Notes under the pieces: generated by a model
Seen by the model: only the letters and a program-made list of their open reading frames with translations
Told to the model about the DNA's origin: nothing
Databases searched by the model: none
In this document: one piece after another, positions 21,622-35,366 of the stretch
Layout of the letters: each line of letters starts with the position of its first letter
Position numbering within the stretch: the first letter of the stretch is position 1
Position numbers and translations under genes: made by a program
Assembly (NCBI RefSeq): GCF_040111675.1
Contig: NZ_CP157794.1
Span: 2,439,501 to 2,503,500, forward strand
Direction: 5' to 3'
DNA from: Salinarimonas sp.
GTDB lineage: Bacteria > Pseudomonadota > Alphaproteobacteria > Rhizobiales > Beijerinckiaceae
Length of the DNA: 64,000 bases

Positions 21622-21798
21622 GTGATCCCGGGCCGCGAAACGGATTCGGGACCCATACCCGCGACGTCGGCTCGAGCGCGCATCGCGCGCGCGTCGCGCC
21701 GCGTATGCGCATGGTCATGTCGCGCGACGCAGCCTGAAGGCTGCGACACCAGCGTCGGCGTTGATGGGTCCCGGATCGCCTTCGGCGTCCGGGATGAC
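21622..21798. repeat. Diverged copy of the 185-bp palindrome-bounded intergenic repeat
   Basis: Begins GTGATCCCGGGCC and ends GGCGTCCGGGATGAC. It shares with the array at 31-35 kb the blocks CGGGACCCATA, GCAGCCTGAAGGCTGC and GATGGGTCCCGGAT, and the same bounding arrangement of two hairpin modules in opposite orientation. It lies between converging genes, so may also act as a bidirectional terminator. Confidence 0.7.
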
Positions 21799-28827: not shown

Positions 28828-28849
28828 AGGAGGCGGCGTAATGAGCAAG

Positions 28850-30028
28850 TCAAGCAGCTTTTCGATCGGGATCGAAGGCTTCGCGGCGCTGAAGCATGGT
28901 CCAGATCACGGTGACGCGGCGCCTTGCGAGTGCGATGAGGGCCTGGGTGTGGTGCTTTCCTTCGCGTCGCTTGCGGTCGTAGAAGGCCTTGGAGAGAGGG
29001 TCTTTGGTCGTGACGGCGCAGAAGGCGCTCTGGTAAAAGACGCGCTTGAGGGCCTTGTCGCCGCCGTAGGCGCGCCGCCAGCCTGCGCGCTTTCCGGACT
29101 GGCGCTGGACGGGCGCGAGACCGGCAGCGGAAGCCAGCGCGTCGGCCGACCCGAAGCGCCGGATGTCGCCGACGCAAGCGATGAACTCTGCCGCGAGGAC
29201 CGCCCCCATCCCCGGCAGCGAACGGATGAGGGCGCCGTCAGGGTGGTCGGCGAGCAAGCCTTCGAGATCGCGCTCGATCCGGACGATCCTGGCGCGCGCC
29301 TCGAGTGCCTCGTTTGCAAGCTCGCGGATCAGTTCGGCCGTAGGCGCCTCGCCCGGCACGACGATCTTCTGCGCCCGGGCGGCCTCCAGCGCGCGATCGA
29401 CGAGGGCGTCCGTCCCGTGCAGGTGCGGCGTCCTCTTCAGATGCGCGAGCAGGCGGGGTTTTCCGGCGCGTCGGATCTCGGACGGCGTGACGTAGCGCGT
29501 GAGCAGGGCCAGCGGCCCCTTGCAGGTGAGGTCCAGCGTCCGTTCGAGGCCGGGGTGGATGCCGCACAGAAGTCCACGCAGGCGGGAGATGCGCCGCGTC
29601 TGATCCTGGATCAGCTCGCGCCGGCGACCGACCTTCAGCCGGAGCGCGACGAGCGTGTCGTCGTCCGGCAGGATCGGGCGCAGATCGCGGGTGCGCACCA
29701 GGTCCGCGATGGTGCGCGCATCCCGCGGGTCGGACTTGCGTTCGCCCCCCGAGAAGCCCTGGCCGGCGCGGTTCACCGCGATGCCGGGCGTGTGCACGAG
29801 GGCAAAGCCCTCGGCCAGCAGGACCGCTTCGAGGAAGCGGGCGAAGGAGCCCACGACGTCGAGCCCGATCACCACCTCTCGCCCGAGCGCGCGAAGCTCC
29901 CCGACCAGCGCGTCGATCGCGTCCGGGTCGTTCTCGACCGCGCGGTCGAGAACGACCCGGCCCTCGCCGTCGACCGCCACCGCCCAATGCGTGCCCTTCG
30001 CGGCATCGATGCCGACGCATATCCTCAT
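28850..30028 (-). CDS. IS110 family transposase (DEDD-type, bridge-RNA class)
   Basis: A 392-residue, apparently intact recombinase. The N-terminal RuvC-like DEDD domain shows CVGIDAAKGTHWA, VVIGLDVVGSF and KSDPRDARTIADL; the C-terminal Transposase_20 domain shows LPGMGAVLAAEFIA and FGSADALASAAGLAPVQRQSGKR in which the Ser is the expected nucleophile position. No frameshift or stop. It differs strongly from the two other transposases in the window, which belong to the IS1111 group. Confidence 0.93.
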   Translation of the reverse strand: MRICVGIDAAKGTHWAVAVDGEGRVVLDRAVENDPDAIDALVGELRALGREVVIGLDVVGSFARFLEAVLLAEGFALVHTPGIAVNRAGQGFSGGERKSDPRDARTIADLVRTRDLRPILPDDDTLVALRLKVGRRRELIQDQTRRISRLRGLLCGIHPGLERTLDLTCKGPLALLTRYVTPSEIRRAGKPRLLAHLKRTPHLHGTDALVDRALEAARAQKIVVPGEAPTAELIRELANEALEARARIVRIERDLEGLLADHPDGALIRSLPGMGAVLAAEFIACVGDIRRFGSADALASAAGLAPVQRQSGKRAGWRRAYGGDKALKRVFYQSAFCAVTTKDPLSKAFYDRKRREGKHHTQALIALARRRVTVIWTMLQRREAFDPDRKAA

Positions 30029-30245
30029 CGTTCACCCCCCCTTCCGACCCCGGAACGCAGGCCTCGTCTCGCCGGCATCGCCTTACAAAGCCATCGAGGG
30101 CATCGCGTAATCAGCGGTCGATCAGAGGCGGCGATGCGGGCGGCCAAGCCTCCCGAGCCATCGAGGACAGCCGGCATGACAGCCATACCCGCATCGCCTG
30201 CGCCACAGCAGCTTCTCACTACCGACAGCGCTAGGAAAAGGGGTA
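30029..30245 (-). ncRNA. Candidate bridge RNA region of the IS110 element
   Basis: The noncoding segment before the transposase start can form a long-range stem: GGCGATGCGGG at 30130-30140 and its reverse complement CCCGCATCGCC at 30188-30198, with a 47-nt internal part. AGCCATCGAGG occurs twice (30089-30099 and 30156-30166). Published IS110-group elements encode their bridge RNA in exactly this position. Loops and guides were not assigned, so the call rests on position and the stem. Confidence 0.45.
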
Positions 30246-30252
30246 AGGCGGC

Positions 30253-31158
30253 GTGAGCGAGGCGGACACAGCGGACGAGGCCCCCCGTCCGGGCGCGAGC
30301 GCGCTCGGGGAGGACGCCGCGGCGCATGCCCGCGAATGCGAGCGAATCGTCTACACGGACGACCGGGACCGCTATCTCGCGACCCTCTTCGCCCCCGCCG
30401 ACAAGCGCCCGGGCCTGTTCGCCCTCTACGCCTTCGCCGTCGAGGTCGCCCGCATTCCCGCGCGCGTCAGCGAGCCCCTGCCCGGCGAGATCCGCCTGCA
30501 ATGGTGGCGCGACGCGCTGGAGGGCGCGCGCGTCGAGGAGGCCCGCGCCAACCCGGTCTTCGCCGCCCTCGACGAGACCATCGCGCGCTATTCCCTGCCG
30601 CGCGCGGCCCTCCTCGCGCTGGTCGAGGCCCGCATCCAAGACCTCTACGAGGACCCGCTCGCCACCGTGAACGATCTCGAGGGCTATGCCGGCGAGACCG
30701 CCTCCGTGCTGATGCGCCTCGCGAGCCTGATCCTGGCGGAGGGCGCCGATCCCGGCCACGTCGACGCCGCCGGCCACGGCGGGGTCGCCTACGCCGTCAC
30801 GGGGCTGATGCGCGCCTTCCCCTGGCACGTCCGGCGCGGGCAGCTCTACGTTCCGCCCGTGGAGAGCCTCGCGCGCCACGGGCTGACGCGGGAGAAGGCG
30901 CTCGCGGGGGAGGGGGGGCTCGCGCTCGCCGCCGCGCTGCAGGACATGCGCGCGCTGGCCCGCCGGCATCTGGCGCAGGCCCGCGCCGACCTCGCCGGCG
31001 CGCCCGCCGCCATCAAGCCCGCCTTCCTGCCGCTCGCGCTGGTCGAGCCCGCGCTGAAGCGCATGGATCGGCCCGATTACGATCCCTACCGAAGCGTGAT
31101 CGAGGTCCCCCAATGGCGCCGCCAGCTCGCTTTGTGGTGGGCCGCGCGGCGGATGTGA
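30253..31158 (+). CDS. Squalene/phytoene synthase-family protein, NDUFAF6-like
   Basis: A 301-residue all-helical protein starting at GTG (30253). It has the family segments FALYAFAVEVARI, RLQWWRDALEG and YAGETASVLMRLASLIL, but the canonical DxxxD prenyl-diphosphate motifs of true squalene synthases are absent or altered, as in NDUFAF6. In many alphaproteobacteria it follows secDF and the Mth938-like gene. Here the IS110 element separates it from its old ribosome site; AGGAAAAGGGG at 30233-30243 inside the element end could serve instead. Function as complex I assembly factor is inferred from the human homologue. Confidence 0.82.
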   Translation: MSEADTADEAPRPGASALGEDAAAHARECERIVYTDDRDRYLATLFAPADKRPGLFALYAFAVEVARIPARVSEPLPGEIRLQWWRDALEGARVEEARANPVFAALDETIARYSLPRAALLALVEARIQDLYEDPLATVNDLEGYAGETASVLMRLASLILAEGADPGHVDAAGHGGVAYAVTGLMRAFPWHVRRGQLYVPPVESLARHGLTREKALAGEGGLALAAALQDMRALARRHLAQARADLAGAPAAIKPAFLPLALVEPALKRMDRPDYDPYRSVIEVPQWRRQLALWWAARRM

Positions 31159-31167
31159 CGATCTCCC

Positions 31168-31711
31168 GTCATCCCGGGCGCCGAAGGCGACCCGGGACCC
31201 ATACGCGCCATCGCGTCCCGAGCGGCGCTCGCGCCGCGTCCCGCCGCCCTCGATGCCGCTTCGTTCGCACAGGGCGTGCGATGCGACCTGAAGGTCGCAA
31301 GACCGGCGTCGGCACGTATGGGTCCCGGATCCGCTTCGCGGTCCGGGATGACGGGGGAGGGCGTCATCCCGGGCGCCGAAGGCGACCCGGGACCCATAAG
31401 CGCCATCGTGTCCCGAGCGGCGCTCGCGCCGCGTCCCTCCGCCCTCGATGCAGCCTCGTTCGCCTGGGGCGTGCGATGCGACCTGAAGGTCGCAAGACCG
31501 GCGTCGGCGCGTATGGGTCCCGGGTCCGCTTCGCGGTCCGGGATGACGGGGGGAGGGTGTCATCCCGGGCGCCGAAGGCGACCCGGGACCCATACGCGCC
31601 ATCGCGTCCCGAGCGGCGCTCGCGCCGCGTCCCGCCGCCCTCGATGCCGCTTCGGTCGCACAGGGCGTGCGACGCAGCCTGAAGGCTGCGACACCGACGC
31701 CGGAGAGAATG
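31168..31711. repeat. Array of 185-bp palindrome-bounded repeats, left block
   Basis: Two complete units (31168-31352 and 31363-31547) and the left part of a third (31559-31711), which is cut by an IS. Each unit starts GTCATCCCGGGCGCCGAAGG and ends GCGGTCCGGGATGAC. The two ends are inverted copies of a 36-bp module that itself folds (TCCCGGG...CCCGGGA). A central part of about 110 bp carries GCGACCTGAAGGTCGC, another palindrome. Units are separated by 10-11 nt. Confidence 0.85.
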
Positions 31712-31791
31712 TTGGTGTGGACGGCCCCACCCGGCGGCATCTGTGTGCCAAGATGGAGTATCTGCAGCTCGATCTGAGGGAGGGACCGTCC

Positions 31792-32856
31792 ATGAAGGAG
31801 TTTAGCGCGATCGGCATCGACACGTCCAAGGCTCATTTCGCGGTGTCCGGCGCGGACGCGTCGGGCCGGGAGGTCTGGCGCGAGAGCGGGACGCCGGCGC
31901 GGATGAAGAAGAAGCTTTCGGCGCTTGCGCCGACGCTGATCGGGATCGAGGCGTGCCGGGGCGCGCACCTTCTCGCGCGCGAGCTCGTCGCCATGGGCCA
32001 CGACGCGCGCATCGTGCCGCCCCAGCTCGCCAAGCCCTTCGTCGGGCGCAACAAGAACGACGCCGCCGACGCCCGGGCGATCTGCCGGGCCGTGCGGGAG
32101 CCGGACACGACCTTCGTGCCGATCAAGAGCGAGGCGCAGCAGGCGGCCGCCATGCTCGTCGACCACCGGCGGGCGCTCCAGGCGCGCCGAACCGAGATCG
32201 GCAACCGCGTTCGCGGCTACGCCGCCGAGCTCGGGATCGTGGCTCCGCAGGGCGCCCGATACATCCCCACGATCCTCGGCGAGATCCTCGCCCGCACGGA
32301 CCTGCCGACGCACGCGCGGCTCGTCTTCGAGGATCTCGCCGACGAATGGGAGCGCCTCGGCCCGCGGGTCGCGGCCGCGGAGGCCGCGCTCGTGAAGGCG
32401 GCGCGGGCGAGCGAGGCCTGCCGCCGGCTGATGGAGGTGCCCTGCGTCGGCCCGGTCGTGGCCTGGCGCACGATGGTGGCGGTGGGCGATCCGCGGCGCT
32501 TCCGCTCGGGACGCGCCTTCGCCGGCTGGCTCGGGCTCACTCCGCGCGACCACACCACCGCCAACAGGCAGCGCCTCGGCGCCATCACCCGCGCGGGCGA
32601 CATGGCGCTCAGGGCCGATCTCGTCTGCGCGGCGACGGCGCTGCTCCAGCAGGTGAAGCGCCGCGGCGAGGAGGCCTGCGGCGGCGGGCGGCTCGTCGCC
32701 TGGGCGGCGCGGCTCCTGCCCAAGAAGAAGTTCAAGGAGGTCGCGGTCGCGCTGGCCAACCGGGTGGCGCGGATCCTGTGGAAGCTCCTCGCCTCCGGCG
32801 CGCGCTTCGACCGCGATCACGGCCCGGCCCTCGAGCCGCTGGAGGCCGCGGCGTGA
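31792..32856 (+). CDS. IS1111-group transposase, copy 1
   Basis: A 354-residue recombinase starting MKEFSAIGIDTSKAHF, with GGAGGG 7 nt upstream of the ATG. DEDD-domain blocks GIDTSKAHF, IGIEACRGAH and KNDAADARAICRAVR are present, and the C-terminal Transposase_20 block VPCVGPVVAWRTMVAVGDPRRF. The usual DHS(T)AG segment is DHTTANRQRLG: the residue expected to be the nucleophilic Ser is Thr255. Protein identical to copy 2. Complete frame. Confidence 0.92.
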   Translation: MKEFSAIGIDTSKAHFAVSGADASGREVWRESGTPARMKKKLSALAPTLIGIEACRGAHLLARELVAMGHDARIVPPQLAKPFVGRNKNDAADARAICRAVREPDTTFVPIKSEAQQAAAMLVDHRRALQARRTEIGNRVRGYAAELGIVAPQGARYIPTILGEILARTDLPTHARLVFEDLADEWERLGPRVAAAEAALVKAARASEACRRLMEVPCVGPVVAWRTMVAVGDPRRFRSGRAFAGWLGLTPRDHTTANRQRLGAITRAGDMALRADLVCAATALLQQVKRRGEEACGGGRLVAWAARLLPKKKFKEVAVALANRVARILWKLLASGARFDRDHGPALEPLEAAA

Positions 32857-33185
32857 GCGCCGCCGCACCCCGTTTCGCGCCGGCCGGCCGCACCTGCGGC
32901 CGCCCCGGCGCGCCCGAGACGCCCGCCGCCCGCCGTGCCCTCCGGGGCCGACAAGCGAGGGCGTGACCTGCAGGAACGAGAGGTGGACCATCGACACGTC
33001 GATGATCGGGCCAAGCCGCGGGACCCAATGGCGCGATGAAATCGCGGGTATGTTCGGCGCCCGATCAAGCGTAACCCATCTTGGCCAGCGGCCCTCGGGC
33101 CGCGCGAACAGGTCGGACATATGGGTGCAGGCGATCTCGATGAGCCGGCTCGACCCTCTTGCAGACCAGGGGCCGTCCACATATG
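32857..33185 (+). ncRNA. Candidate bridge RNA in the 3' end of IS1111 copy 1
   Basis: Noncoding 329 nt with a row of perfect hairpins: CGGCCGC/GCGGCCG at 32885-32902, CATCGA/TCGATG at 32989-33004, CGCGAT/ATCGCG at 33032-33046. Between the last two lies GGGACCCA (33020-33027), the complement of TGGGTCCC, the target sequence on the right of the insertion point; CATATGGGT (33118-33126) resembles the target top strand. IS1111-group bridge RNAs lie 3' of the transposase. Guide assignment is inference. Confidence 0.45.
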
Positions 33186-33380
33186 GTCCCGGATCCGCTT
33201 CGCGGTCCGGGATGACGGGGGGAGGGCGTCATCCCGGGCGCTGAAGGCGACCCGGGACCCATACGCGCCATCGCGTCCCGAGCGGCGCTCGCGCCGCGTC
33301 CCGCCGCCCTCGATGCCGCTTCGTTCGCACAGGGCGTGCGATGCGACCTGAAGGTCGCAAGACCGGCGTCGGCGCGTATG
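33186..33380. repeat. Repeat array between the two IS copies
   Basis: The right end of the unit cut by copy 1 (33186-33216, ending GGGATGAC) and the left 153 nt of the next unit (33228-33380), which is cut by copy 2 at the equivalent place, after GCGCGTATG. The sequence differs from the neighbouring units by only a few bases (for example GCGCTGAAGG for GCGCCGAAGG). Confidence 0.8.
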
Positions 33381-33460
33381 TTGGTGTGGACGGCCCCACC
33401 CGGCGGCATCTGTGTGCCAAGATGGAGTATCTGCAGCTCGATCTGAGGGAGGGACCGTCC

Positions 33461-34525
33461 ATGAAGGAGTTTAGCGCGATCGGCATCGACACGTCCAAGG
33501 CTCATTTCGCGGTGTCCGGCGCGGACGCGTCGGGCCGGGAGGTCTGGCGCGAGAGCGGGACGCCGGCGCGGATGAAGAAGAAGCTTTCGGCGCTTGCGCC
33601 GACGCTGATCGGGATCGAGGCGTGCCGGGGCGCGCACCTTCTCGCGCGCGAGCTCGTCGCCATGGGCCACGACGCGCGCATCGTGCCGCCCCAGCTCGCC
33701 AAGCCCTTCGTCGGGCGCAACAAGAACGACGCCGCCGACGCCCGGGCGATCTGCCGGGCCGTGCGGGAGCCGGACACGACCTTCGTGCCGATCAAGAGCG
33801 AGGCGCAGCAGGCGGCCGCCATGCTCGTCGACCACCGGCGGGCGCTCCAGGCGCGCCGAACCGAGATCGGCAACCGCGTTCGCGGCTACGCCGCCGAGCT
33901 CGGGATCGTGGCTCCGCAGGGCGCCCGATACATCCCCACGATCCTCGGCGAGATCCTCGCCCGCACGGACCTGCCGACGCACGCGCGGCTCGTCTTCGAG
34001 GATCTCGCCGACGAATGGGAGCGCCTCGGCCCGCGGGTCGCGGCCGCGGAGGCCGCGCTCGTGAAGGCGGCGCGGGCGAGCGAGGCCTGCCGCCGGCTGA
34101 TGGAGGTGCCCTGCGTCGGCCCGGTCGTGGCCTGGCGCACGATGGTGGCGGTGGGCGATCCGCGGCGCTTCCGCTCGGGACGCGCCTTCGCCGGCTGGCT
34201 CGGGCTCACTCCGCGCGACCACACCACCGCCAACAGGCAGCGCCTCGGCGCCATCACCCGCGCGGGCGACATGGCGCTCAGGGCCGATCTCGTCTGCGCG
34301 GCGACGGCGCTGCTCCAGCAGGTGAAGCGCCGCGGCGAGGAGGCCTGCGGCGGCGGGCGGCTCGTCGCCTGGGCGGCGCGGCTCCTGCCCAAGAAGAAGT
34401 TCAAGGAGGTCGCGGTCGCGCTGGCCAACCGGGTGGCGCGGATCCTGTGGAAGCTCCTCGCCTCCGGCGCGCGCTTCGACCGCGATCACGGCCCGGCCCT
34501 CGAGCCGCTGGAGGCCGCGGCGTGA
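33461..34525 (+). CDS. IS1111-group transposase, copy 2
   Basis: Identical 354-residue product to copy 1, including Thr255 in the DHTTANRQ segment and the DEDD blocks. Because both copies are intact and identical, transposition or duplication was recent. Same ribosome site GGAGGG upstream of the ATG. Confidence 0.92.
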   Translation: MKEFSAIGIDTSKAHFAVSGADASGREVWRESGTPARMKKKLSALAPTLIGIEACRGAHLLARELVAMGHDARIVPPQLAKPFVGRNKNDAADARAICRAVREPDTTFVPIKSEAQQAAAMLVDHRRALQARRTEIGNRVRGYAAELGIVAPQGARYIPTILGEILARTDLPTHARLVFEDLADEWERLGPRVAAAEAALVKAARASEACRRLMEVPCVGPVVAWRTMVAVGDPRRFRSGRAFAGWLGLTPRDHTTANRQRLGAITRAGDMALRADLVCAATALLQQVKRRGEEACGGGRLVAWAARLLPKKKFKEVAVALANRVARILWKLLASGARFDRDHGPALEPLEAAA

Positions 34526-34854
34526 GCGCCGCCGCACCCCGTTTCGCGCCGGCCGGCCGCACCTGCGGCCGCCCCGGCGCGCCCGAGACGCCCGCCGCCC
34601 GCCGTGCCCTCCGGGGCCGACAAGCGAGGGCGTGACCTGCAGGAACGAGAGGTGGACCATCGACACGTCGATGATCGGGCCAAGCCGCGGGACCCAATGG
34701 CGCGATGAAATCGCGGGTATGTTCGGCGCCCGATCAAGCGTAACCCATCTTGGCCAGCGGCCCTCGGGCCGCGCGAACAGGTCGGACATATGGGTGCAGG
34801 CGATCTCGATGAGCCGGCTCGACCCTCTTGCAGACCAGGGGCCGTCCACATATG
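34526..34854 (+). ncRNA. Candidate bridge RNA in the 3' end of IS1111 copy 2
   Basis: Identical to the segment after copy 1; GGGACCCA is at 34689-34696 and CATATGGGT at 34787-34795. See copy 1 for hairpins and the complementarity to the repeat unit. Not demonstrated as a transcript. Confidence 0.45.
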
Positions 34855-35366
34855 GGTCCCGGATCCGCTTCGCGGTCCGGGATGACGGGGGGAGGGTATC
34901 ATCCCGGGCGCCGAAGGCGACCCGGGACCCATACGCGCCATCGTGTCCCGAGCGGCGTTCACGCCGCGTCCCGCCGCCCTCGATGCAGCCTCGTTCGCAC
35001 GGGGCTCGTGATGCGACCTGAAGGTCGCAAGACCGGCGTCGGCGCGTATGGGTCCCGGATCCGCTTCGCGGTCCGGGATGACGGGGGAGGGCGTCATCCC
35101 GGGCGCCGAAGGCGACCCGGGACACCCTCCATCGCGTCCCGAGCGGCGCTCGCGCCGCGTCCCGTCGCCCTCGATGCCGCTTCGTTCGCACAGGGCGTGC
35201 GATGCGACCTGAAGGTCGCAAGACCGGCGTCGGCGCGATCCGCTTCGCGGTCCGGGATGACGGGGGGAGGGTGTCATCCCGGGCGCCGAAGGCGACCCGG
35301 GACCCATACCCTCCATCGCGTCCCGAGCGGCGCTCGCGCCGCGTCGCTCGCCCTCGATGCCCTTCG
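34855..35366. repeat. Array of 185-bp palindrome-bounded repeats, right block
   Basis: Contains the right end of the unit cut by copy 2 (34855-34886), a full unit (34897-35082), a unit missing TATGGGTCCCGG near its right end (35093-35261) and a truncated unit (35273 to about 35366) that degenerates before the flavin reductase gene. Internal sequence changes between units are few, pointing to recent amplification or homogenisation. No gene was found in this 510-nt stretch. Confidence 0.82.

Follow-up and report, generated by a model that had tools for sequence, protein, structure and literature searches.

The window analysed here is a stretch of 64,000 nucleotides from the chromosome of Salinarimonas sp. 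(NZ_CP157794.1, positions 2,439,501 to 2,503,500), and positions given below are those of the window unless they are marked as genome positions. It contains an array of palindromic repeats that is interrupted by a pair of insertion sequences (IS) assigned to the IS1111 group, both on the plus strand, identical across 1474 bp, and separated by a gap of 195 bp that lies inside the array. Each copy carries a transposase gene (tnp), two subterminal inverted repeats (sTIRs), and a non-coding region (NCR) downstream of tnp. The features of the locus are as follows:

31168..35366, no strand assigned: repeat array of about seven palindromic units of about 185 bp, the last one partial, with two units interrupted by the element
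31710..33183, plus strand: IS1111-group element copy 1, 1474 bp, ends placed by the 7/3 rule (PMC11187229)
33379..34852, plus strand: IS1111-group element copy 2, 1474 bp, identical to copy 1
31792..32856, plus strand: tnp of copy 1, encoding a DEDD transposase of 354 amino acids (Pfam PF01548, E 1.3e-14; PF02371, E 2.2e-19)
33461..34525, plus strand: tnp of copy 2, identical to tnp of copy 1
31717..31728, plus strand: left sTIR GTGGACGGCCCC of copy 1, preceded by the 7-bp extension TGTTGGT
33169..33180, plus strand: right sTIR GGGGCCGTCCAC of copy 1, followed by the 3-bp extension ATA
32857..33168, plus strand: NCR downstream of tnp in copy 1, predicted source of a seekRNA (bridge RNA), with a homologous slot in relatives

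An earlier note on this DNA had described two identical elements of the same orientation in 185-bp palindromic units, with at least five further sites left vacant. The copies are indeed identical and on the same strand, the host unit measures about 185 bp, and the array holds nine uninterrupted TATGGGTCCCGG sites (three on the plus and six on the minus strand), a tenth match being the right junction of copy 2. The coordinates proposed in that note, 31712-33185 and 33381-34854, gave the right length but were off by two positions, a shift that falls within a TATG common to both ends of copy 2.

Judged by its sequence, the element is an IS1111-group member of the IS110 family. Both Pfam domains of the transposase, the N-terminal, RuvC-like DEDD_Tnp_IS110 and the C-terminal Transposase_20, scored above cut-off, and the residues D10, E53, D90, and D93, which are taken as the DEDD residues by their position, show no variation among 10 aligned transposase sequences. 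The C-terminal motif GL-P----S/T-G is present as GLTPRDHTTA; its TA form also occurs in three of nine aligned relatives and is described as occasional in the IS1111 group (PMC11187229). Close to this motif, T255 (S elsewhere) and N258 (G elsewhere) deviate from nearly all relatives. According to the published rule, IS1111 elements have sTIRs of 11-13 bp, extensions of 7 bp on the left and 3 bp on the right, and a long NCR downstream of tnp (PMC11187229). Here, the sTIR arms pair at 12 of 12 positions (computed on the own-genome copy L053), and the NCR spans 312 bp from the tnp stop to the right sTIR; the 12-bp reading was chosen over a possible 13-bp reading because it fits the 7/3 extensions. 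With the ends placed in this way, joining the flanks restores an uninterrupted repeat, for copy 2 as ...GCGCGTA^TGGGTCCCGG..., and a target-site duplication is absent: the joined flanks equal the uninterrupted site in five of the six copies found in the genome, copy 1 being one G short.

These six full-length copies were found in a genome that consists of a single contig of 5,353,493 bases (completeness 99.79%). Five are identical and one carries a single synonymous change. They lie at four chromosomal places, namely the window pair, one copy each at 2.63 Mb and 1.66 Mb, and a second pair at 1.29 Mb, whose members sit two units apart and have identical immediate flanks. All six share the same insertion point in the repeat family and the same relative orientation. 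Both arm types are occupied, the CTGAAGG-stem side in the window and at 1.29 Mb, and the other inner stem side at 2.63 and 1.66 Mb. The uniform point and orientation therefore support the proposal of the earlier note that the element targets this repeat family specifically, as does the readable guide described below. A survey of all copies in this genome and in relatives, also suggested there, gave a uniform picture for the own genome; on the side of the relatives, the same element was not found in 99 related genomes (best protein match 42%), and flanks are therefore not comparable across strains. The closest relative encoded in a genome reached 48% (best segment) among the 80 loci kept of 473 encoding a relative, and on plasmids none reached 60% or more among the 5000 best-scoring records (best 48.2%).

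The supply of targets in the genome is large. The repeat family, which by its shape only is likened to the repetitive extragenic palindromic (REP) sequences, comprises well over a hundred arms, and its largest array has about 11 units, with cores that differ from the target. The 12-mer TATGGGTCCCGG occurs 56 times in the genome, 5 of these being element right junctions, vs. zero occurrences of a reversed control; this contrast and the uniform placement of the six copies speak against chance. An exact search for the full 16-bp target GCGGGTATGGGTCCCG returned 20 uninterrupted sites in the genome, and none in the 99 related genomes (two of them from the same genus) or in the controls. One related genome of the same order (G094, 8.0 Mb) contains 34 TATGGGTCCCGG matches and eight transposase matches, and none of the 16-bp target. 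As to the origin of the repeat, spread by a REP-associated tyrosine transposase (RAYT) is ruled against by the absence of its domain (Y1_Tnp, PF01797), which gave no match in the own genome and was detected in 5 of 14 control genomes.

The NCR contains a candidate guide pair that fits the flanks of the element. A scan of the window against Rfam at the gathering threshold gave no match. The features that concern the guide are as follows:

33019..33027, plus strand: predicted guide T CGGGACCCA of copy 1, complement of TGGGTCCCG, the top-strand sequence to the right of the insertion point
33044..33052, plus strand: predicted guide B GCGGGTATG of copy 1, equal to the left flank of the 1.29-Mb copies and predicted to pair with the bottom strand
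34688..34696, plus strand: predicted guide T of copy 2 (identical element, offset 1669)
34713..34721, plus strand: predicted guide B of copy 2 (identical element, offset 1669)
33003..33068, plus strand: predicted target-binding stem-loop of the guide RNA of copy 1, with compensatory changes (alignment columns mapped to the window)
21647..21662, minus strand: vacant target GCGGGTATGGGTCCCG that fits the guides perfectly over 16 bp, within a further repeat unit

Guides T and B (9+9 nt) overlap at a TG core, and their order, as read from sequence match and position, is T followed by B, which is the order published for IS1111 seekRNAs (PMC11187229). A perfect 9+9 guide score was equalled or beaten at 8 of 119,458 other insertion points of the window, and one of these eight is the genuine vacant repeat unit at 21647-21662. 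At five of the six occupied sites guide T fits at 9/9 positions, and at copy 1 one G is missing. The fit of guide B is complete (9/9) at both 1.29-Mb copies; one position is off at copy 2 and at the 2.63-Mb copy (8/9 each), two are off at 1.66 Mb (7/9), and three at copy 1 (6/9). We also noticed a 10-nt inverted match between the left end (GCCAAGATGG, 31747-31756) and a conserved NCR motif (CCATCTTGGC, 33076-33085). Own and swapped pairings gave means of 4.6 and 4.7 over 72 elements, and this complementarity was therefore rejected as evidence.

The 72 elements derive from a set of 110 loci, comprising one copy from the own genome and 109 relatives that are about 27-48% identical by tblastn. 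Ends could be defined for the own element and 71 relatives; the other 38 loci were dropped, as they had no clear sTIR pair or their ends lay too close to a contig end. Two poor rows, L113 (N in the flanks) and L157 (doubtful ends), were kept and scored as failures. A free search for guides returned recurrent positions that agree with those of the window element, at about -150 (T) and about -125 (B) relative to the right inverted repeat. When the search was restricted to these slots, the own-flank guide sum reached at least 13 nt in 51 of the 72 elements, vs. 24 of 4926 swapped pairings, from which pairs with alike flanks were excluded. Three relatives illustrate the relationship, Bradyrhizobium L083, Hyphomonadaceae L094, and Rhizomicrobium L084, with transposases 46-48% identical to this one. 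They share the sTIR (0-1 of 12 positions off), the guide slot, and an alignable structured NCR, but each has its own guides and flanks and is aimed at another sequence.

For the RNA fold, 13 NCRs were picked from the closer ones among the 72 and aligned. The consensus fold has 25 pairs, 16 of which are changed on both sides, and reaches a covariation score of 0.475, vs. 0.196 for shuffled and at most 0.116 for slid alignments. Guide segments T and B face each other across a single internal loop, which is flanked by covarying helices.

Taken with the copies in the genome, we consider it very likely that this is a recently active IS1111-group IS that is guided by RNA to a single position within the arms of a palindromic repeat specific to this host. 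RNA transcribed from the region 3' of tnp would fold into a seekRNA (bridge RNA), and the transposase with this seekRNA would put the excised circle at the target by pairing, in one orientation and without target duplication. Copies would thus accumulate in the repeat arrays, where neighbouring units can be hit, because the target sits in both arms of a repeat with well over 100 arms in the genome. Several observations weigh against RNA guiding. The flanks of copy 1 match the guide poorly (left 6/9, right with one G missing), and three further reconstructed targets of the six have 1-2 mismatches to guide B. Under a strict score of exact runs, both 1.29-Mb copies reached 18, and copy 1, copy 2, and the remaining two copies (L001 and L004) scored 0 owing to mismatches close to the insertion point. 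Occupied sites include mismatched ones while 20 perfect sites stay vacant. Among the relatives, 5 of 72 elements had no guide pair at all in the free search, 21 of 72 stayed below 13 nt in the slot test, and the 72 elements are not phylogenetically independent. Finally, one of five covariation measures, further pair types, was not above the shuffles (113/500).

A transposase that reads the hairpin or cruciform structure of the repeat, instead of its sequence via a guide RNA, would likewise place all copies in the arms of a strong palindrome, and REP sequences are targeted by several IS families (PMC1525189). However, relatives with flanks unlike this repeat again show guide-flank matches, and no copy is present in the 1.40- and 3.79-Mb arrays, which share the palindromic architecture but have TCTGGG, TATAGG, or TCTAGG at the core. 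A comparison of cores covered the 135 arms read with both anchors. The core TATGGG is present in 58 of these (4 being element junctions), and the off-target cores TCTGGG, TATAGG, TCTAGG, and TCCGGG are present in 62, none of them occupied. After addition of the occupied 1.66-Mb site, 5 of 59 TATGGG arms are occupied vs. 0 of 62 off-target arms (one-sided p 0.025; treating copy 1 as off-consensus raises it to 0.089); 15 of the 135 arms with other cores, including the copy 1 junction, were left out. The arm count further left out 32 T-only and 5 E-only matches, which are mostly chance, element-internal, doubled, or cut at edges, and which include, among the T-only matches, at least three real arms with a decayed outer end (genome positions 1403749, 1464121, and 3796727). 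Reading of structure is given very little credence.

We then considered whether the window pair reflects one event or two. The left flanks, GAGAATG at copy 1 and GCGTATG at copy 2, differ as reported in the earlier note, and do so at several of the 40 nt closest to the element. Not mentioned in that note is a difference of one G between the right flanks (ATGGTCCC at copy 1 and ATGGGTCCC at copy 2), directly at the element. As flanks differ directly beside both copies, two insertions are more likely than a simple unequal crossover, and the window copies are probably separate insertions. The earlier conclusion that the insertions were independent, rather than a tandem duplication, therefore appears likely, although recombination may have shaped the flank of copy 1. 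The unit left of copy 1 (31560-31711) looks chimeric: its first ~110 nt match the array, and its last ~40 nt are like subtypes elsewhere, e.g., at 810 kb and 1.56 Mb. Given this patch, recombination or gene conversion may have contributed.

In its full form, the recombination scenario holds that one insertion was followed by duplication or spread between units, through unequal crossover or gene conversion. In its favour, arrays of repeats are prone to recombination, the two elements show no difference in sequence, the pair at 1.29 Mb has identical immediate flanks two units apart, and the ~40-nt patch left of copy 1 resembles distant subtypes. A simple crossover in the intervening unit, however, predicts something other than the differences seen at the element edges on both sides of the window copies, and the 1.66- and 2.63-Mb copies need another cause anyway, most simply transposition. 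Furthermore, when six copies were placed randomly on 57 sites, at least two doubly-hit clusters arose in 12% of draws, and the pairing therefore needs no special cause; local hopping or a preference for arrays was likewise set aside as unneeded. We regard such a spread by recombination as possible but unlikely. That the pair is an assembly artefact, with only one copy truly in the array, is the least credible explanation. Assembly is difficult where 1.47-kb copies of identical sequence lie only 195 bp from each other among repeats, but the genome is a single contig of 99.79% completeness and the copies have distinct flanks on both sides. In two same-genus genomes, no repeat anchor was present near the phytoene synthase gene in the stretches compared (L164 of G001; L165 and L166 of G002, in which the gene is split across two contigs), and the flanking genes differ, which precludes a direct before/after comparison.

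Small deletions were observed at the insertion point of vacant repeat arms. In total, 137 arms were read, the 135 with both anchors and 2 with a broken target, and element junctions account for 5 of them. The stem-loop part measures either 23 or 24 nt in every one of the 135. Losses of 1, 1, 2, 4, and 12 nt at the insertion point were found in five arms, four of them vacant and one being the right flank of copy 1. The two largest losses fall into one unit of the window:

35090..35272, plus strand: vacant unit whose two arms have each lost bases at the insertion point (left arm 4 nt, right arm 12 nt)

The losses of 2 and 1 nt in the other two vacant arms are at genome positions 2624980 (minus strand) and 3692698 (minus strand), respectively. 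Of the four vacant deleted arms, three belong to the 2.47- and 2.62-Mb arrays, two arrays in which copies of the element are likewise present. Five of six losses lie in the 12-nt target, which gives p 0.006 if losses are even over the 45-nt arm; this test is post hoc, and two of the losses belong to one unit. These deletions might be footprints of earlier element copies, which we consider improbable; they may be ordinary deletions in palindromes. Decay at the outer end affects at least three more arms, of which the one at 1403749 has changed in length by 1 nt, and a unit of the 3.79-Mb array lacks 1 nt in its middle. Both observations argue against footprints, and the outer-end length change slightly lowers their odds.

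A second IS110-family element is located in the window at ~28828-30263 on the minus strand; it encodes a transposase of 391 amino acids and has three copies in the genome. Two of the three lie between a Shine-Dalgarno-like GAGGAGGC and a GTG that is presumably the start codon. In the window, this element separates GAGGAGGC from the phytoene/squalene synthase gene at 30253.

Targeting of REP sequences by IS1111 elements and guiding by seekRNA are already published, and what is new here is this element. A literature search by family and repeat words yielded, among the matches listed, no recognised publication on this element or repeat. REP-targeting members of the IS110 family include ISPa11 (6/6 copies), ISPpu9 (7/7), ISPpu10 (7/7), and ISRm19 (4/4) (PMC1525189, with Table 2 for ISPa11, ISPpu9, and ISPpu10). 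Closest in description is ISPa11 of Pseudomonas aeruginosa, an IS1111-family element found at one REP position in all six copies (PMC1525189), for which experiments have shown a seekRNA with the top-strand match placed ahead of the bottom-strand match (PMC11187229). It differs in having another REP target, whereas the repeat here is a composite of ~185 bp with a target in both arms and arrays of up to ~11 units; the two are set apart by description, the present element being known from sequence alone. ISPpu9 and ISPpu10 of Pseudomonas putida, each with 7/7 copies in REP sequences (PMC1525189), belong to the same family and have a different host; they are likened by description, not by sequence or target. 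For IS1111 elements, bridge RNAs located in the right end have been published (PMC11208160). IS621 of Escherichia coli, from the IS110 group, shares the DEDD transposase and a bridge RNA, and targets of the IS110 family include REP sequences; its bridge RNA, however, lies in the left end and its STIRs are 2-3 bp (PMC11208160), whereas here the RNA region is downstream of tnp and the sTIR is 12 bp.

The guide of this element can be read against a genome rich in occupied, vacant, and near-miss targets, so that mismatch tolerance may be scored in its natural context, and by fitting a host-specific repeat the guide would provide the element with abundant landing sites. What becomes of the donor site after IS1111 excision is a question for which the deletions at vacant sites give a testable lead. 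One study did not detect the re-joined target once IS1111 circles had formed, and describes the process as still to be established (PMC11187229). If the deletions were footprints, they would bear on this puzzle of the unrecovered re-joined target: excision of IS1111 would break the donor site, bases would be lost during its repair, and the repeat arrays would represent a fossil record of element turnover.

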